A stretch of 37,673 nucleotides of DNA, from assembly GCF_902762735.1 (NCBI RefSeq), contig NZ_CACWPP010000023.1, forward strand, positions 1-37,673. Direction: 5' to 3'. Each line of letters begins with the position of its first letter. Position 1 is the first letter of the stretch. The translations under genes were made by a program, and so were the position numbers. A model generated the notes under the pieces. The model did not search any database. It was given only the letters and a program-made list of their open reading frames with translations, and had not been told where the DNA came from. This document shows, in pieces, positions 19,327-34,820 of this stretch. The DNA comes from an uncultured Ruminococcus sp. (GTDB lineage Bacteria; Bacillota; Clostridia; Oscillospirales; Ruminococcaceae).

Positions 19327-19346
19327 AGACAGGAGTGATATATTTT

Positions 19347-19997: not shown

Positions 19998-20132
19998 ATG
20001 ACTATACTTGACGCATTAAAGCACCTTGCTGAGGCTATGGGTGCAGACGCTTCCGAGGCGGGCGATATTGCAGAGGCTATCGAAGTGATAGCAAAGGCTA
20101 AGGAGCAGGAGCAGGAGGGCGGTGAGCCCTGA
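19998..20132 (+). CDS. Small acidic protein between tail-tube-like genes
   Basis: 44 aa, MTILDALKHLAEAMGADASE onward, ending in a Lys/Glu/Gln-rich tail (AKAKEQEQEGGEP). It has an excellent AAAGGAGG eight bases before the ATG, and its stop overlaps the next start (TGATG). It is an Ala-rich helical protein with no recognised family. The strong ribosome site and the coupling support a real gene. Confidence 0.65.
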   Translation: MTILDALKHLAEAMGADASEAGDIAEAIEVIAKAKEQEQEGGEP

Positions 20133-20668
20133 TGCCCCGATACTACACGGGATTTCGGAATTTTTTGTACAAGGTAGGCAGAGGCGAGTTAAAGCCACTC
20201 TACGGCGCACAAAAAATATCTTTTAAGCAGCAGACAGTGCCCCGCTCCCTGACCGTAAGAGTGGGGGCGGGAGCGCTGAACTACAGCGAGAACATCGAGG
20301 CAGGAAAGCTCGCAGACCTGGATATAGTACAGCTGCCTGTGTCTTTCCTGGTAGACGTTCTCGGTTATACTCTTACAGCCGGTAACGTACTTGTGGAAAA
20401 TGCACAGTATAAACCTGTGCATTTTTCGCTGTTCTATGAACAGCAGACCGACACAGAGCCTGTGCGCACACAGGTCTTTGACGTGTGCTGTGTACGGCCT
20501 GATTTTGATGTGACGACCATGACAAACAGACCGTCGGTAGACATCAAAAAATTAAAGCTGATAATAAATGCAGATGTTCGCAGTACGTCTGCAAACCTCA
20601 GGACTATAAGCCGTGAGGACAATGCAGAACTTTTTGACACTTGGTTCGGGGAGGCGAGTACATCATGA
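20132..20668 (+). CDS. Second tail-tube-like protein
   Basis: 178 aa. Segments follow the same order as in the upstream major tail protein: a YGAQKISFKQQ strand, a central acidic stretch, and at the end VCCVRPDFDVTTMTNRPSVDIKKLKLIINADV, matching LTKRPDIIHNTKSNSLSVDSDTMNIIAKPR in layout. Similarity is visible but low, so homology is inferred. It could be a minor tube subunit, a cap or an alternative tube protein. It overlaps the chaperone by four bases. Confidence 0.5.
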   Translation: MPRYYTGFRNFLYKVGRGELKPLYGAQKISFKQQTVPRSLTVRVGAGALNYSENIEAGKLADLDIVQLPVSFLVDVLGYTLTAGNVLVENAQYKPVHFSLFYEQQTDTEPVRTQVFDVCCVRPDFDVTTMTNRPSVDIKKLKLIINADVRSTSANLRTISREDNAELFDTWFGEASTS

Positions 20669-21180
20669 CGGGCAGCGTAAAACTAGGGCGTGATAAAGTA
20701 CAGCTCAAAGCCTCTGCGGGGGTGCTGGTGCTGTACAAGTCGCAGTTCGGCTGCGACTACATCGAGGACAGCAAAGCCATTTTTGACGACGATAAAAAAC
20801 TGGACATAGAGCAGTATATCCAGACAGGCTATCGCTTGCTGTGGTGTATGGCAAAAATGGCTGACCCTGACATACTCCCGCCCGATGAATGGGCGGAGAG
20901 CCTGGGAGAGTTTGACCTTGAAGAACCCCTGAAGAAGGCGCAGAAGCTGTATTCAGAAAGTCTGAACTTTGCACAAAAGATACAGAACGCCACCGAGGAC
21001 AGCGAGGAGCTGACAGCGGAAAAGCTGATAGCCTACTCTGCCCTGTGTGGCATGACCCTTGCAGACCTTGACCGTCTGCCCCTGCCTATGGTGCTGGAAA
21101 GCATATATGAGTATGTGCGCCTGAGATATGGCGAGGGTGAGGAACGTGCAGCGACTCAGGCAGACTATGATAACTTTTAG
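20665..21180 (+). CDS. Tail assembly chaperone-like protein
   Basis: 171 aa from the ATG at 20665 in an ATGA overlap, with GGGGAGGCGAG upstream. Place in the order (between tube and tape measure), acidic helical makeup (DPDILPPDEWAESLGEFDLEE, ENATEDSEELT) and length fit siphoviral G-type chaperones. These often make a second, frameshifted GT product. Here the frame ends at TAG next to a terminator, and no convincing slippery site is seen. Any GT partner may have been displaced by the inserted island. Confidence 0.65.
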   Translation: MTGSVKLGRDKVQLKASAGVLVLYKSQFGCDYIEDSKAIFDDDKKLDIEQYIQTGYRLLWCMAKMADPDILPPDEWAESLGEFDLEEPLKKAQKLYSESLNFAQKIQNATEDSEELTAEKLIAYSALCGMTLADLDRLPLPMVLESIYEYVRLRYGEGEERAATQADYDNF

Positions 21181-21187
21181 GCACAAT

Positions 21188-21220
21188 AAAGCCCCCGCAG
21201 GTGCGAGGGCTTTGTTTGTT
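21188..21220 (+). terminator. Intrinsic terminator after the chaperone gene
   Basis: AAAGCCC, an inner CGC/GCG stem and GGGCTTT (21188-21213) are followed by GTTTGTTTA. It is placed to stop or reduce rightward transcription before the island, and it also lies just beyond hicB. Confidence 0.7.
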
Positions 21221-21621
21221 TAGTCGTTGATATTCAATTCCTGCATAAGGGCTTTTTGCAAAACTGCGGAAAAGTTGATACCCGCCTTTTCGGAAAGGGT
21301 GTTGAGCCAGTTGGGGATAGTCAGAGTTTTCTTGACTGCTTTATTATCGAAAAACTTGCGGTATTCGACAGTGTCACATCCGACCAGCGAAGCTATTTCG
21401 TTATCGGCAAGGCTGATACTGCGTATAGGTGTGGGCGGAGCGATCTCTTTGCCGTCCTCTTCCAGACCGTAGAGCGTAAGATTGAGAACATCTTCTGCCA
21501 TTTTCAAAGCCTCTTCCAGAGTATCGCCCTGAGTATAGCAGCCTTCCAGATCGGGAAATACTACGGAATAGCCGCCCTCTTTTTCAGCTGTAAAGACCGC
21601 AGGATAAACGTATTTAGCCAT
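21220..21621 (-). CDS. HicB-like antitoxin
   Basis: 133 aa. The N-terminal partial RNase H-like HicB domain is clear (YPAVFTAEKEGGYSVVFPDLEGCYTQGDTLEEAL). The C-terminal ~40 residues (TIPNWLNTLSEKAGINFSAVLQKAL) form a ribbon-helix-helix DNA-binding domain. It neutralises HicA and represses the pair. AAGGAGGTATTATC precedes the ATG. It lies downstream of hicA in the same leftward operon, the usual HicAB order. Confidence 0.92.
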   Translation of the reverse strand: MAKYVYPAVFTAEKEGGYSVVFPDLEGCYTQGDTLEEALKMAEDVLNLTLYGLEEDGKEIAPPTPIRSISLADNEIASLVGCDTVEYRKFFDNKAVKKTLTIPNWLNTLSEKAGINFSAVLQKALMQELNIND

Positions 21622-21668: not shown

Positions 21669-21854
21669 TTATTCAAGCCCTGCGTCCCTTTTGATGTTTT
21701 TTAGCGTACCGCTTGCTACCTCTTGTCCCTTGTGACGACCTATCGAAAAGGTCTTGCCGGTTTGGGGGCTGAACCATTGTTCGTGGTTCGCGCCCTCTCT
21801 TACAAGGTAACAACCGTTCTTTTTCAGCAGCTTTTTCAGCTCGCTGTATTTCAT
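21669..21854 (-). CDS. HicA-like mRNA interferase toxin
   Basis: 61 aa. The dsRBD-like HicA fold is complete: YSELKKLLKKNGCYLVREGANHEQWF, with the catalytic H24, and FSIGRHKGQEVASGTLKNI. It cuts mRNAs independently of ribosomes in known systems. GGGGGAAAGTCA precedes the ATG. It is first in a leftward operon with hicB. The intact active-site residue suggests a working toxin. Confidence 0.92.
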   Translation of the reverse strand: MKYSELKKLLKKNGCYLVREGANHEQWFSPQTGKTFSIGRHKGQEVASGTLKNIKRDAGLE

Positions 21855-21879
21855 TGACTTTCCCCCTTTCTGTAATTAT

Positions 21880-21908
21880 ATTATAACACGTATTAATACG
21901 TATGTCAA
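21880..21908 (-). promoter_or_regulatory. hicAB promoter with palindromic operator
   Basis: Leftward TTGACA (21908-21903), 17 bases, TATAAT (21885-21880), both consensus. The spacer holds the perfect 14-base palindrome ACGTATTAATACGT (21888-21901), the probable HicB or HicAB operator for autoregulation. Confidence 0.85.
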
Positions 21909-21962: not shown

Positions 21963-22028
21963 ATGACAGAATTACTCGCTTACCTCGACACCCTCGAACA
22001 CTGTTTGAGTGGATTATTAGACGACTAG
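21963..22028 (+). CDS. Tiny ORF ending in SGLLDD
   Basis: 21 aa, MTELLAYLDTLEHCLSGLLD plus D. GAGGTGTAAAC is a fair ribosome site. The DNA for the last 12 codons (21993-22028) matches the end of the gene at 22520-22759 at 29 of 36 positions, both ending in SGL(L/I)DD and TAG. It is either a leader peptide, the remnant of a duplicated gene end, or a leftover of the chaperone's second part. A terminator follows directly. Confidence 0.4.
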   Translation: MTELLAYLDTLEHCLSGLLDD

Positions 22029-22070
22029 CATTTGCGACCGACATATATGTCGGCGGCAGGTGCTTTTTTT
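22027..22070 (+). terminator. Intrinsic terminator before the Tad1/Acb2-like gene
   Basis: AGCA...TGCT arms enclose a strong inner stem CCGACATATATGTCGG, and the structure runs into TTTTTTT (22064-22070). It follows the 21-aa ORF. It may attenuate read-through into the next gene. Confidence 0.75.
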
Positions 22071-22100
22071 ATACTCAAAAGCAGAAAGGAAATGATGAAA

Positions 22101-22469
22101 ATGAGAGAATTAAGCACGATACAGAAACGCGAGAAACTGAACACCGTCTACGCTGTTGATGAAGCGGGTGTCGGCGGCGCTAGTCACGAATACTTGGTGT
22201 TACTGCCTACGGACGAATCCGATGTAGCAATACCTGTTGAGATAGCTTTCCAGAACGGTCCGAGGAAAGACCCGAAGAGCATTCCGGGTGTACTTGACAC
22301 TGACCTGTTAGAGATCGTCCGTGACAGGCTCAAAGGCTTCCAGAGCGGCGAATTTTCCTGCCGTGAAAATGCCTGCGCCCTCACTCACATAGAAGAAGCA
22401 TTGATGTGGATGAACCACAGAGTTGAGGACAGGATAGAAAGACAGGTACTCGGCACGAATGCAAAGTGA
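22101..22469 (+). CDS. Tad1/Acb2-like immune-signal sponge (candidate anti-Thoeris/anti-CBASS)
   Basis: 122 aa. ATG 22101 is preferred because AAAGGA lies 10 bases upstream; in-frame ATGs at 22092 and 22095 are too close. The C-terminal two thirds match what I know of the Acb2/Tad1 hairpin family: FQNGPRKDP (50-58), [19 protein letters not shown] (63-81), then [17 protein letters not shown] (87-103) and a [11 protein letters not shown] end. The N-terminal strand region ([18 protein letters not shown]) fits Tad1-type proteins. Family members bind cyclic nucleotide or gcADPR signals and so blunt CBASS or Thoeris. Terminators flank it in the tail operon. Family fairly sure; ligand unknown. Confidence 0.65.
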
Positions 22470-22497
22470 CCGCTTAACTCAGTTAGGTGGTTTTTTT
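22469..22497 (+). terminator. Intrinsic terminator after the Tad1/Acb2-like gene
   Basis: ACCGCTTA and its partner TAGGTGGT pair with wobbles to give an eight-base stem with a loop of about 7 bases, followed by TTTTTTT (22491-22497). Confidence 0.65.
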
Positions 22498-22519: not shown

Positions 22520-22759
22520 ATGGATAGTCCCAAATTCCCGATATATATGTGTGACCACACTAAGAACACCGAATGCCCTAAAACATCGTGCAAGTATAAC
22601 CCGAATGCCAAATACGGGGAATGCACTAACACTTCAAAGAAAGAATTCGCCAGACTCGATGAAAACGGCAAGCCAATAGTTGTATATGCCAACATGACAG
22701 AGGCTATGGCTGAATTCAATGCCCTTGAACATACTTCAAGTGGATTAATAGACGACTAG
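22520..22759 (+). CDS. Small Cys-rich protein before the tape measure
   Basis: 79 aa from ATG 22520 (GGGGGTGATAAA before it). The N-terminus MDSPKFPIYMCDHTKNTECP plus two more cysteines (TSCKY, YGECTN) suggests a small metal-binding knot. The remainder (FARLDENGKPIVVYANMTEAMAEF) is globular, and it ends EHTSSGLIDD, shared with the 21-aa ORF. It lies 10 bases before the tape measure ATG, so it is coupled to tail genes. Similar Cys-rich small proteins occur in Clostridia phages; function unknown. Confidence 0.6.
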   Translation: MDSPKFPIYMCDHTKNTECPKTSCKYNPNAKYGECTNTSKKEFARLDENGKPIVVYANMTEAMAEFNALEHTSSGLIDD

Positions 22760-22769
22760 GAGTGATAAA

Positions 22770-25700
22770 ATGCCGGCAGCATACCGCAGTATATATGTGA
22801 CCTTTGAAGCCAACACCCAGAAGCTGGGAACGGCGTTAAAAAACATCGACAGCGAGGCCACCAGCGTAAACCGGAACCTCAAAGAAGTAAACAAAGGTCT
22901 TAAACTTGACCCTCAGAACACCGAACTGCTGGCAAAAAAGTTTGCTACGCTGTCCGATGGCATATACAACGCCGAGAAACGTTTGAAGATGCTTCGGGAA
23001 GCTCGCAGTCAGGCGGAGGCACAGCTTGGCGGGCTGGATAAGACGTCACAGCAGTACAAAGATCTGGAGGCACAGATAGCCAGCCTGGACAAGGAACTAG
23101 AGCGCAGCGGTCAACTGCTGGCCAACTACCAGCAGGAGGCAAAGAACGCATCGGCGGAGATCACGGGCAGGCTCAAGGAAGGTGTCAGCGCCCTGAAAGA
23201 AGAGTTTGCTTCCGCCGCAAGCGTTATCGCCAAGGCGGAGGCGGCACTGGCAGCATATACCGCTGCCGCTGTAAAAACAGGCGCTGAGTTCTCGGCAGCT
23301 ATGTCCCAGGTAGCGGCAACTACAGGTGTAACAGCTGACACCGAAGACTATGATAAAATGGCGGCCGCCGCTAAAGAGATGGGCGAGACCACGAGCTACA
23401 CGGCCTCGCAGGCCTCTTCGGCACTCAACGCACTCGCGCAGGCAGGCTACAACGCCGACGAGGCCATAGCCAAGCTGCCGAAGACCTTGACACTGGCAAA
23501 AGACGGCGGGCTCGATCTTGCGCAGGCCGCAAAGATCGTCACCAACTCCATGTCCTCCCTCAAACTGGAGGAGGAAGACCTGAACAAGCTGATAGATGAG
23601 CTTGCAGTGACAGCGCAGAAGTCCAACACCAACATAGCGGAACTGGGCGAAGCTATCAAGGTAACGGGTGGAACTGTCAGCATGACGGGGCAGAGCATGG
23701 AGACCATGTACACCGAACTGGGCATACTGGCCAACAACGGCATAGTGGCTGCCGAAGCCGGTACCCACCTGAGAAACGCACTGCTAGCCCTTGCCGCACC
23801 ATCCACAAAGGGTGCTAAAGCGCTGAAGGAGCTGGACGTCAGCCTGACAGACGGCAAAGGCAACATGAGGGACTATGGCGAACTGCTCGCAGATCTCAGC
23901 AAACGCCTCGATGAGGTCTATGGTGTGGGTAAAAACAATGCGGCCCGTACCGAAGCCCTGAAAGAGATCTTTAGAGTTACCGATCTGACCGCTATAAACG
24001 CTATGTTAGACGGCACATCGGGCAAGATGCAGGAACTGAGAGCCAACATCGACTCCGCTGAGGGTGCTGCCGATCAGATGGCGCAGACGATGGGCGACAA
24101 CCTTAAAGGCGACTTTGACATCTTAAAGTCCTCCGCCGAGGGTCTGCAGCTGGCCATAGCCGAAAAGCTTGACCCTGCGCTGAGAAAAGCCGCACAGGAC
24201 GGGACGGATTTCTTTGCCGATCTGACGCAGAAAGTCAAGTCAGGAGAGCTTGGCGAGACCTTTGAGGAACTTGGCGAAACTATCAACAAGCTGCTGAAAA
24301 CAGGGCTTGAAAATGCATCGAAGTGGCTGCCTGTTATCATAGATCTGTTGGCAAAGGTAGCAGACAATTTTGACCTGATACTGACACTGTACATAACCTG
24401 GCAGGCGGCTTCAAAGGCAAAGATCATAGCGGGGGCTATAACCAAGATATATGAGAGCACAATGGGGCTTGTCACGGCTATGCAGGCAGCCACCACAGAG
24501 CAGGAGGCATTTAACGCTGCCGCTTCAGCTAACCCTATAGGTGCGATCATAACAGCTGCTGTAACTGCAATCACGGCATTAAAGCTGGCAATCGATGCAG
24601 CCACAGCCTCCATTGATGTGACAGGTGGAAAATTTACAGAAGCATCACAGGAGATCAAGGATTACGCCGAAAACATACACGCCATGAATGAGGAACTGCG
24701 AGAGACGTCCGAAAACCGCAGATCCGCACTCAACGACCTCGAACGTGAGAACGCAAGGTTGTCTGCTCTTGCAGGAACGGTTGCTGAATTGGCGGAAAAA
24801 CAGGAACTGTCAGCAGGTGAGTATGAGACCCTGCAAAAGCACATCGACACCTTAAATAAGACTGTCCCGGGGCTTAGCCTTGCGTTTGACAGCCAGACAG
24901 GTGCGCTGAACATGACACGTGAAGCCATGCTGAAGCTGGTTGAAAGCTACGAAGCCTACCAGGAGCTGCAGGCACGCATAGACTACGGTGCTGACCTGAG
25001 GCGAGAACAGGTGGAAGTACAGGATAGTTATGATGTGGTCGATGAGAAATTCCGTGAGGTCACTCAGCGCAAAAAAGATCTGGAAAACGACCTTGCACGC
25101 ATAGAAACTGAACGTGCAGTTTTGAGTGCCAAGCTCACCGACCAGAACGGGCTTTGGACAGATGACGACATCGCCAAAGACACACAGCTTACCCGCAGAT
25201 ATGAAGCAGTCAGCCAAGCCCTTGAACAGACCTCAGCCGACTACCGAGAACTTGGGCTTGCACACATTGAAGCACGAGAAACGTTGGAAAATCTCAATGA
25301 AAAACTAAGCGACAATGGTGAAAAAATCGAAGAACTGACAACCGTAGCGGCGGATTACACCGACACACTCACCGATCAGACCCGCGCCGAAGGTAAGGCT
25401 GCCGAAGCTGCAGACAAAGCCGCACACTCTTCCGACGACCTGAAAAAAGCATACGATTCTGCCAAGTCTGCCACTGCCGCATACAAGTCAGAACTTAAAG
25501 ACCTGTTAAGCGTGCTTGAAAATGTGCAAAAAGGCACAGCTTACAGCACCTCGCAGATACTTGACCTTATCGACAAATACCCTCAGCTGGCGGGAGCGAT
25601 ACGTGAAACGGCTGACGGGTATATCATCGAGGCTGATGCGGTGCGCAGGCTGACGGAAGCGCGGGCGCAGACAACAGTGCAGGCAAAACAGCTGGAGATA

Positions 25701-26672
25701 GCGGAGCTGGAAAGTCAGCTGTCAAAGCTGATGATAAAGCCCGCAGACATGGACACTGACGAATGGCAGAAACAGCGTTCGGCATTATACAGCCAGTATG
25801 GGGAAGCGCAGGAACTCCTGTCAGCATACCGCGCCATCGAGCAGGAGATAAGGGAAGGGCACATCTATTTCGGCTCGTCATCATCGGGCGGCGGTACATC
25901 GTCTTATGAGGGCGGCGGCTCTTCATCGCCGAGCAGTGCCGACCCCTACGAAGAAGAACTCAAACGCCGCAAAGAAGCCGCAAAGTCTGAGCAGGCACAG
26001 CTTGAACATGACTACAAGATGGGGCTTATCTCGGCTGAGGACTACTACAACGGTCTGATGGACGTTGCAAGGCGGTACTATGCGGGCATCGGCGAACTGC
26101 GGGAAGAGTACCTTTCGGCAGAAAGCAAGGTCTATGAGGGGCTAAAAAAAGCGCAGGAAGATGAACTGTCAAACGCTAAGAAACTGGAAGATCAGCTGAG
26201 AGCAGTCAGGGAAGCTGAGGACGCGCTGAACAATGCGCAGAAACAGCAGGTCAGCGTTTACAGTTCAGCGGCGGGTTATCATGCTGAGATGAACACAGCC
26301 GCCATCGACAAGGCGCGGCAGACCCTTGCCGACAAGAACTATACTCTTGCCGAAACACTGCTTAAAAACGCCCGCTTCAACGGTGAGAGTTTGGCTGAAC
26401 GCTTGCAGTCCATAGGGCTTGCGAACATACGCGACATGCTCCCCGACCTTTCGGGACTGCGCTTGCCGTCAATAGGCGGGGGAACTGCCACCACGAACAA
26501 CAGCACCCGAAACATCACCTACAACGGCGGCGATATACACATAACCATCGCGGGCAGTGTGGACGAAACTACTCTGCCGAAGCTGAAAGGCACGCTGGAG
26601 GACACTGTAAGAAAAGTCTTTGAACAGGTGCTTGACGAAGAGAATGCCGCGCGGCAGACAGGAGGTCTATAA
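22770..26672 (+). CDS. Tail tape measure protein
   Basis: 1300 aa, the longest gene here. It starts with a coiled coil (DSEATSVNRNLKEVNKGLKL), then an Ala/Gly-rich TP901-like core (AAMSQVAATTGVTADTEDYD), hydrophobic segments about 560-630, and long coiled coils to about 1000. Near 1035 a Ser/Gly linker (SSSGGGTSSYEGGG) leads to a second helical part. At 0.15 nm per residue it implies a tail of about 190 nm. AGGAGTGATAAA precedes the ATG. No peptidase motif was noticed. Confidence 0.92.
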   Translation: MPAAYRSIYVTFEANTQKLGTALKNIDSEATSVNRNLKEVNKGLKLDPQNTELLAKKFATLSDGIYNAEKRLKMLREARSQAEAQLGGLDKTSQQYKDLEAQIASLDKELERSGQLLANYQQEAKNASAEITGRLKEGVSALKEEFASAASVIAKAEAALAAYTAAAVKTGAEFSAAMSQVAATTGVTADTEDYDKMAAAAKEMGETTSYTASQASSALNALAQAGYNADEAIAKLPKTLTLAKDGGLDLAQAAKIVTNSMSSLKLEEEDLNKLIDELAVTAQKSNTNIAELGEAIKVTGGTVSMTGQSMETMYTELGILANNGIVAAEAGTHLRNALLALAAPSTKGAKALKELDVSLTDGKGNMRDYGELLADLSKRLDEVYGVGKNNAARTEALKEIFRVTDLTAINAMLDGTSGKMQELRANIDSAEGAADQMAQTMGDNLKGDFDILKSSAEGLQLAIAEKLDPALRKAAQDGTDFFADLTQKVKSGELGETFEELGETINKLLKTGLENASKWLPVIIDLLAKVADNFDLILTLYITWQAASKAKIIAGAITKIYESTMGLVTAMQAATTEQEAFNAAASANPIGAIITAAVTAITALKLAIDAATASIDVTGGKFTEASQEIKDYAENIHAMNEELRETSENRRSALNDLERENARLSALAGTVAELAEKQELSAGEYETLQKHIDTLNKTVPGLSLAFDSQTGALNMTREAMLKLVESYEAYQELQARIDYGADLRREQVEVQDSYDVVDEKFREVTQRKKDLENDLARIETERAVLSAKLTDQNGLWTDDDIAKDTQLTRRYEAVSQALEQTSADYRELGLAHIEARETLENLNEKLSDNGEKIEELTTVAADYTDTLTDQTRAEGKAAEAADKAAHSSDDLKKAYDSAKSATAAYKSELKDLLSVLENVQKGTAYSTSQILDLIDKYPQLAGAIRETADGYIIEADAVRRLTEARAQTTVQAKQLEIAELESQLSKLMIKPADMDTDEWQKQRSALYSQYGEAQELLSAYRAIEQEIREGHIYFGSSSSGGGTSSYEGGGSSSPSSADPYEEELKRRKEAAKSEQAQLEHDYKMGLISAEDYYNGLMDVARRYYAGIGELREEYLSAESKVYEGLKKAQEDELSNAKKLEDQLRAVREAEDALNNAQKQQVSVYSSAAGYHAEMNTAAIDKARQTLADKNYTLAETLLKNARFNGESLAERLQSIGLANIRDMLPDLSGLRLPSIGGGTATTNNSTRNITYNGGDIHITIAGSVDETTLPKLKGTLEDTVRKVFEQVLDEENAARQTGGL

Positions 26673-33492: not shown

Positions 33493-34047
33493 ATGAAAAC
33501 TATCATCGAAAACAACACCATCAAGGTTCAGAGCGACTACAACAAAGACTTTATCGCCCGTGCGAGAATGTTGCAGGGCAAGTGGAAAGCGCCCTACTGG
33601 TGCTTCCCCGAAGAGAATAAGGACGAAGTCAGAGAACTTCTGCTGGACATTTATGGCGAGTGCGACACCCTCGCCGAAGAGCCCACCGCCTACGTAACTC
33701 TGGAAGTATCTCTGGACGAACTCAGCGACGGTGAGAGCATAAAGCTCGACACTATGACGCTATGCCGCCGCCAGTGTCGTGACTACGATGTAAGGCTCAG
33801 CGACAATGTTATGCTGATAAAAGGTGGGTTCGCTTCCAGCGGCGGCTCGATGAAAAATCCCCGCTGCTGTCCTCAGGACGGCACTGTTCTGCGCGTCAAG
33901 AACGTCCCCATGAAGATATACGAGCGTGTGAGAGAACACGAGGGTGTGACCCTTGTGGGCAACATCGACCGGGCAAAGCTGGTCGAAGAGCGTGAAAGGC
34001 TCATGGCAAGGCTTGCAGAACTGGACGAACTTCTGGCGGCGATATAA
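33493..34047 (+). CDS. Unknown protein coupled to the recombinase
   Basis: 184 aa from ATG 33493 (AAAGGATGTAATTTT). The N-terminal ~55 residues (IKVQSDYNKDFIARARMLQG, then KWKAPYWCFPEEN) resemble a short domain seen in assorted plasmid and phage proteins in which a basic helix is followed by GKW...W.F. The central part is beta-rich, and the C-terminus is a coiled coil (AKLVEERERLMARLAELDELL). The stop overlaps the recombinase ATG (TAATG), so both are made together. It may be a directionality or accessory factor; unproven. Confidence 0.55.
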   Translation: MKTIIENNTIKVQSDYNKDFIARARMLQGKWKAPYWCFPEENKDEVRELLLDIYGECDTLAEEPTAYVTLEVSLDELSDGESIKLDTMTLCRRQCRDYDVRLSDNVMLIKGGFASSGGSMKNPRCCPQDGTVLRVKNVPMKIYERVREHEGVTLVGNIDRAKLVEERERLMARLAELDELLAAI

Positions 34048-34820
34048 TGGTTGCCATATACATTCGGGTGTCCACGCCCGATCAGGCGAGGGAGGGCTAC
34101 TCTCTCGCCGCCCAAGAAAGGGCTTTGCGGGAGCACTGCGAGCGGACAGGGCATGAAGTGTATGCCGTCTATGCCGACGAGGGCATCAGCGGGAAAGATA
34201 TAGTCCACCGTCCTGCGTTCTGCCGCCTTATGGACGATGCACGACACGGACTGTTTACTGCTGTATACGTCTGGGCACTGAGCCGCTTTACGCGCAGTGT
34301 AGCCGATCTGTATAACACATGGGGCGAATTGTCGAAGTATGGCGTACAGCTTGTGAGCATCACAGAGGGCTTTGACACTTCCACGCCTACGGGACGGGCT
34401 ATGATGGGAGTGATAGGCGTATTCGCGCAGATGGAGCGCGAACTGACAGCGGAACGAGTCAGACTGGCGATGCAGGAACGTGCGGAGCAAGGCAAGCGAA
34501 CATGCAGCTATGTTCTGGGCTACGACCGTGACGGCAAGGACGGGCTGAAAGTCAATCCCGAAGAAGCAGAGCTGGTGCATCTGATATATGATAAATTTAT
34601 CGCTTATAAGTCTTACCTGCCTGTCGCTGACCTGCTGAACGCGCTGGGAAAAACGGGCAAGTCAGGCAAGCCGTTTAAAGCTGAGAGCATCAAGAAGATA
34701 CTGAGAAATCCGATCTACATCGGGTACTACCGCTACAAGGGCAAGTGCTACAAAGGCGACTTCAAACCGATAATCGAGCGGCACTTGTGGGATAAGGTAC
34801 AGAAGATCGTTGTGAGATAG
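34047..34820 (+). CDS. Short serine recombinase (probable phage integrase)
   Basis: 257 aa. Resolvase-type catalytic domain with S9 (YIRVSTPDQAREGY), EGISGKD and the E-helix region (GVFAQMERELTAERVR). It is followed by the Recombinase domain (GYDRDGKDGLKVNPEEAELV ... LRNPIYIGYYRYKGK). It stops right after that domain. Large serine integrases normally continue for 150-300 residues with a zinc ribbon and coiled coil; these are absent. It lies at the prophage's right end next to ssrA. Either a minimal enzyme or a truncated one; the following terminator argues against recent truncation. Confidence 0.85.
   Translation: MVAIYIRVSTPDQAREGYSLAAQERALREHCERTGHEVYAVYADEGISGKDIVHRPAFCRLMDDARHGLFTAVYVWALSRFTRSVADLYNTWGELSKYGVQLVSITEGFDTSTPTGRAMMGVIGVFAQMERELTAERVRLAMQERAEQGKRTCSYVLGYDRDGKDGLKVNPEEAELVHLIYDKFIAYKSYLPVADLLNALGKTGKSGKPFKAESIKKILRNPIYIGYYRYKGKCYKGDFKPIIERHLWDKVQKIVVR

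Follow-up and report, generated by a model that had tools for sequence, protein, structure and literature searches.

A tad1 gene, probably encoding an exchangeable immune-signal sponge, among the structural genes of a phage from a Ruminococcus contig

In this study, we analysed a contig of 37,673 nucleotides (nt) from an uncultured Ruminococcus sp. (NZ_CACWPP010000023.1; this whole stretch is called the window) and characterised a gene at 22101–22469 on its plus strand, termed tad1, which is located among phage structural genes and encodes a protein of 122 amino acids (aa). The best explanation, to which we would give a probability of roughly 0.86, is that tad1 specifies an exchangeable anti-Thoeris and anti-CBASS sponge that is probably expressed late. 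The Tad1 family itself is already known; its exchangeable position among late structural genes is less familiar. A first-pass annotation had proposed a Tad1/Acb2-like signal sponge inside the tail operon; the observation was confirmed, and sequence comparisons support the interpretation.

Re-reading of the window returned the open reading frame (ORF) of 122 codons plus stop, its coordinates and the three motifs quoted in the first-pass annotation exactly. Further in-frame ATG codons were found at 22095 and 22092 (6 and 9 nt upstream of 22101), and the alignment to known Tad1 starts at the Met of 22101. An alternative TTG start at 22032, leading to a longer frame, is unlikely because it is located inside a hairpin. 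The first-pass annotation had named a profile search without any hit to the Acb2/Tad1 families as evidence against itself; the product matched the Acb2/Tad1 hairpin family PF24729 (30.2 bits versus a cut-off of 27, residues 84–106) as well as phrog_2428 (E 1.4e-31, residues 1–122). A Tad1 match in the PDB (E 5e-46, residues 1–122) indicated homology over both domains, and structure comparison by Foldseek and VIA also led to Tad1, so that profile, sequence and structure comparisons agree on Tad1. PADLOC assigned no family to the protein.

PF24729 is common to Tad1 and Acb2 and therefore does not discriminate between them. The predicted monomer displayed strands at residues 15–18, 30–36 and 43–50 and helices at 66–82 and 88–113, whereas Acb2, which has the hairpin family and the sponge principle in common with the window protein, is described in passages of PMC12043709 as roughly 94 aa long and built of two long helices and a short one. 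The window protein is a Tad1 over both domains and not an Acb2; membership of the latter was ruled out by architecture, as Acb2 is a short all-helical protomer and the model of the 122-aa window protein contains a beta domain. The PDB sequence search matched 7 sequences at E ≤ 1, none of them a chain named Acb2. Nor did such a chain appear among the Foldseek or VIA matches listed, which by itself excludes nothing. Since dN/dS (the ratio of nonsynonymous to synonymous substitution rates) was low against three close relatives (0.065 for L001, 0.081 for L002 and 0.14 for the first 100 codons of L004), the protein is under purifying selection.

In regard to putative ligands, residues F80, N90, R55, R107 and R111 are all present in the window protein and were kept in 99–100 of 100 sequences; we take F80 and N90 to be pocket residues for glycocyclic ADP-ribose (gcADPR) and R55, R107 and R111 to form the cyclic trinucleotide site. 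That the residues assumed for both sites are intact argues against a ligand range that has narrowed or shifted, for instance to bind mostly CBASS cyclic oligonucleotides instead of gcADPR, which we consider unlikely. In favour of such a shift, the cyclic dinucleotide range varies among Tad1 homologues according to passages of PMC12043709, and variation within the family is concentrated in the N-terminal half. The preferred reading as an anti-Thoeris and anti-CBASS sponge follows published relatives: as described in parts of PMC12043709, three Tad1 dimers form a hexamer, whose six pockets hold gcADPR or cyclic dinucleotides and whose two trimer interfaces hold cyclic trinucleotides, and passages of PMC11025887 report binding of 1''-3' and 1''-2' gcADPR and not of cyclic ADP-ribose or ADP-ribose. 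By analogy, the window protein would likewise form a hexamer, assembling as a trimer of dimers, hold the cyclic ADP-ribose signals of Thoeris without degradation in pockets between its protomers and hold the cyclic trinucleotides of CBASS at its trimer interfaces. Its anti-defence activity would then consist in soaking up these signals, so that the suicide effectors of the host are kept off until lysis. Tad1 may also act to the detriment of its carrier: in the presence of the Panoptes system, colony formation was inhibited by two of the four Tad1 alleles examined in PMC12657218, probably because they sequester the decoy nucleotide of that system.

According to the structure titles, crystal structures exist for a protein of 66% identity in complex with gcADPR and in complex with cyclic triadenylate (cA3). 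Among the closest known systems is cbTad1 of a Clostridium prophage (PDB 7uav, 7uaw, 8smd, 8kbe, 8kbf), from which the window protein differs in the loop between beta strands, which is 2 residues shorter, and in its setting in a rumen-type phage with a micro-ORF (p21) before it and a gene termed orf79, then the tape measure gene, behind it. CmTad1 (PDB 8kbb–8kbd, with cAAA and cAAG) revealed 34–37% identity, and Tad1 of Bacillus phage SBSphiJ7 (annotated as Tad1, H20) 48% over residues 48–122, its N-terminal part being unmatched by tblastn. In gp184, chain I of PDB 8y6v, which we take to be a phiKZ structure, the C-terminal hairpin matches the window protein (E 9e-6).

This last match bears on the question of whether the sponge is delivered with the virion, i.e., packaged, injected and active from the start of infection, in which case the position among structural genes would reflect delivery. 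Passages of PMC10449902 describe gp184, the Tad1 homologue of phiKZ, as a validated injected protein that enters with the virion, a review also calls phiKZ Tad1 injected in the part cited (PMC13282480), and some phage homologues such as H6, H23 and H28 are annotated, as deposited, as (putative) structural proteins. However, gp184 is longer (230 aa) and has an additional N-terminal region, which is absent from the 122-aa window protein, and no packaging signal is known for the latter; virion delivery is considered unlikely. On the favoured reading of late expression, the position of tad1 makes it most likely that the gene is expressed from the late operon along with those for capsid and tail. 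Such timing, if true, would suit Thoeris systems that respond to phage capsid: because capsid can be sensed by Thoeris (PMC12578639), a sponge produced alongside the capsid would arrive at the same time as the trigger, and the late-gene placement thereby gives a testable prediction of timing.

The features around tad1 and one near the right end of the window are as follows.

20132–20668: major-tail-like protein (phrog_88)
20641–21180, plus strand: gene in the position of a tail chaperone (function suggested by its place only)
21220–21621, minus strand: HicB antitoxin-like protein (PF15919)
21669–21854, minus strand: HicA toxin-like protein of the HicBA pair (PF07927), an insertion separate from tad1 and orf79
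21963–22028, plus strand: p21, micro-ORF of 21 codons with the end SGLLDD
22027–22070, plus strand: hairpin and U-run between p21 and tad1 (-22.9 kcal/mol, z -6.1)
22101–22469, plus strand: tad1, predicted Tad1 sponge of 122 aa with an N-terminal beta domain and a C-terminal helical hairpin (homology, profiles and predicted model)
22468–22496, plus strand: hairpin and U-run between tad1 and orf79 (-12.4 kcal/mol, z -3.5)
22520–22759, plus strand: orf79, Cys-containing protein of 79 aa with the end SGLIDD
22770–26672, plus strand: tape measure protein (phrog_1533, E 1.8e-82)
34047–34820, plus strand: serine recombinase of 257 aa (PF00239, PF07508)

Portal (PF04860), capsid (PF05065) and major-tail-like genes are located upstream of this region, and HicBA on the minus strand, p21, tad1 and orf79 lie between 21180 and 22770. 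The first-pass annotation had placed tad1 beside HicBA, as both profile matches bear out, and between the tail chaperone and the tape measure genes. The tape measure gene is indeed found downstream, while the term chaperone rests only on the position between the major-tail-like and tape measure genes; the gene at 20641–21180 gave no Pfam match and matched only PHROGs of unknown function.

Comparison with relatives revealed both empty and filled versions of this site. The 4.6-kb contig L132 is closely related to the window (100% identity for a fragment of the gene at 19335, 97% for the major-tail-like gene, 94% for the gene upstream of the site and 91% over residues 1–983 of the tape measure protein; no capsid gene is present on this contig), and its order is upstream gene, p21 and tape measure without HicBA, tad1 and orf79, i.e., an empty site. 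L001 has the order p21, tad1, orf79 and tape measure, and L004 shows p21 and then tad1 up to the contig end, both without HicBA; in all three loci, hicA and hicB gave no match at E ≤ 10. A scan with the upstream tail gene (20641–21180) led to three loci, two of them on contigs already in the set. Because L132 lacks both elements and L001 and L004 carry tad1 without HicBA, tad1 with orf79 and HicBA are two separate insertions, and the former is an insertable block between p21 and the tape measure gene. The ends of p21 and orf79 are similar over 66 nt, 47 of which are identical, and orf79 recreates the junction of p21 with the tape measure gene; recombination may have taken place through this common end. 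In p21, fewer amino-acid than silent changes were detected (e.g., 0.02 versus 0.72 between L001 and L132), over a length of only 21 codons. These empty and filled sites show the sponge gene as an interchangeable insert within structural operons.

The location ahead of the tape measure gene might also point to a tail morphogenesis protein without anti-defence role, but L132 possesses the tail genes without tad1, the presumed pocket residues are intact and relatives of tad1 occur at several other gene junctions, which makes this very improbable. Though tad1 and HicBA adjoin in the window, a joint anti-defence or addiction cassette of the two is hardly tenable, being already contradicted by L001 and L004 with tad1 and no hicA or hicB match, and HicBA was likewise ruled out as a partner of tad1 given L132 without both. 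HicBA, reversed among the tail genes, has a 12/12 match to a sigma-70-type promoter (21908–21880).

A second slot was identified via orf79, which occurs together with tad1 in the window, L001, L003/L152 and L005/L151 and revealed a dN/dS of about 0.10–0.19 against four relatives. It had no match in the annotated phage collection and only a sub-threshold one in Pfam. A scan with orf79 gave five loci (L150–L154), all of which carry, upstream, a portal gene with 78–100% identity to its L003 counterpart and, just downstream, a gene for a head maturation protease (72–100%), the L003 genes being named by PHROGs. Directly before orf79, two of the five have tad1 (L151, L152), two DUF6275 (L150, called by scan, and L153, called by like sequence) and one Cys_rich_CPCC (L154). 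Thus, tad1 is one of several alternative inserts in the slot between portal and protease. Throughout L150–L154, orf79 is a fixed boundary gene ahead of the head protease.

Across the family, 99 distinct tad1 loci were compared, and in at least 48 of these (37/67 viral, 11/32 genomic) tad1 has a neighbour assigned to head, packaging or tail, located upstream in 43 and downstream in 37; most often, tad1 stands between the genes for a minor head protein and a scaffold protein (25/99). These 99 distinct proteins (90–150 aa, without internal stops) were derived from 120 tad1 loci, of which the viral ones were the best 80 of 134, and L081, L086, L087, L131 and L133 were excluded as duplicates. As neighbour we took the nearest same-strand ORF of at least 130 aa, which may be a false ORF or kilobases off. 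Assignment was by whole BLAST cluster, based on a single scanned representative; the 20 representatives scanned gave 14 structural and six unknown, unmatched or helicase assignments. Since unscanned clusters were scored as non-structural, 48/99 is a lower bound, uncorrected for relatedness, and L004 was counted only via its upstream tail gene, which belongs to a PHROG of unknown function. Altogether, tad1 among structural genes is common in this part of the family and not specific to the window. A literature search found no description of such placement, which is weak evidence as primary papers were outside its coverage. The Clostridium cadaveris chromosome carries two tad1 loci (L115, L116) about 1.6 Mb apart, which suggests two Tad1-carrying elements in one host.

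Several observations weigh against the preferred reading of tad1 as a sponge gene expressed late. A total of 51 of the 99 loci are without assigned structural neighbour, one such group (L006 cluster, 5 loci) adjoining a helicase gene. Against simple co-transcription with the late genes, a hairpin with U-run stands directly before tad1, and a promoter-like site at 21854–21882 on the plus strand (10/12 match) could drive p21 and tad1 separately from the late genes, though the region holds 5 such sites versus 2.8 expected, which is near chance. Finally, ThsB_TIR (PF08937), SMODS (PF18144) and TIR_2 (PF13676), the defence families searched, gave no match in the own genome; the target of Tad1 may be found in other hosts or in further families.

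In regard to the hairpins, the first-pass annotation had placed tad1 between two terminators. Both hairpin and U-run structures are present, of which a consensus scan found the one at 22468–22496 and not the one at 22027–22070, but they do not isolate tad1: the U-run of the upstream hairpin stops about 30 nt ahead of the tad1 start, and tad1 is therefore transcribed through this hairpin. A motif of U-run plus ATAC was searched at the 99 loci, the pattern differing slightly between the upstream and the downstream side, and was found in 3/99 within 120 nt upstream and in 14/99 within 80 nt downstream; with such low counts, confined to a subgroup, it was ruled out as a family-wide feature.

The ends of p21 and orf79 belong to a recurring element, i.e., an ORF end with the peptide SGL(I/L)DD and the DNA TAGACGACTA, which was detected in the window (21963–22028, 22694–22759) and in L002, L009, L011, L012, L132, L143 and L155. 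It caps unrelated small ORFs at structural-gene junctions and is conserved in both peptide and DNA. A peptide-level search of the fetched loci gave 19 distinct contexts ending in SG(L/F)(I/L)DD, every one with TAGACGACTA in its DNA, and 15 of them came from loci fetched without using this pattern. In viral_contigs, the DNA pattern, which itself encodes the peptide, resulted in 14 matches on 13 stretches, all at the end of a p21-like, an orf79-like or a proline-rich ORF of 36–38 aa. Among the 297 family genomes it occurred in 2 versus 1 for the reversed control, and genome counts alone carry little information. Mostly, the boundary is followed by a hairpin and U-run; these elements are interchangeable, and one hairpin type can follow different ORF ends just as a given end can precede different hairpins. 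As a tentative idea, possible though doubtful, these small ORFs might constitute a common exchange device at several structural-gene junctions in phages of this rumen group, by which anti-defence genes like tad1 are shuffled into the late operon and the sponge is made with the Thoeris-sensed capsid or even carried in the virion. The boundary also offers a handle for finding accessory, possibly anti-defence, genes, as DUF6275 and Cys_rich_CPCC alternate with tad1.

The gut Clostridia setting assumed at first fits, as most of the named genomic relatives are Ruminococcus of rumen and gut, along with other Clostridia. The gene extends a characterised immune-signal sponge to rumen Ruminococcus-type phages. 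It is present once in its own genome and in 4 of the 297 family genomes, own included. ThsB_TIR was detected in 4/29 and SMODS in 2/29 genomes of the genus. PADLOC confirmed ThsB in one case (L082) and a CBASS cyclase in two (L134, L135). Genome G003 carries Tad1 together with a TIR-like protein whose matches to several TIR defence models are weak (best E 3e-11).

Elsewhere in the window, an AAA ATPase at 1463–2722 on the plus strand (PF13476) matched LmuB (E 2.4e-15), among others, in PADLOC, possibly reflecting only the common ATPase fold. The serine recombinase near the right end is consistent with a temperate phage, integration not being visible as the contig is the whole window.
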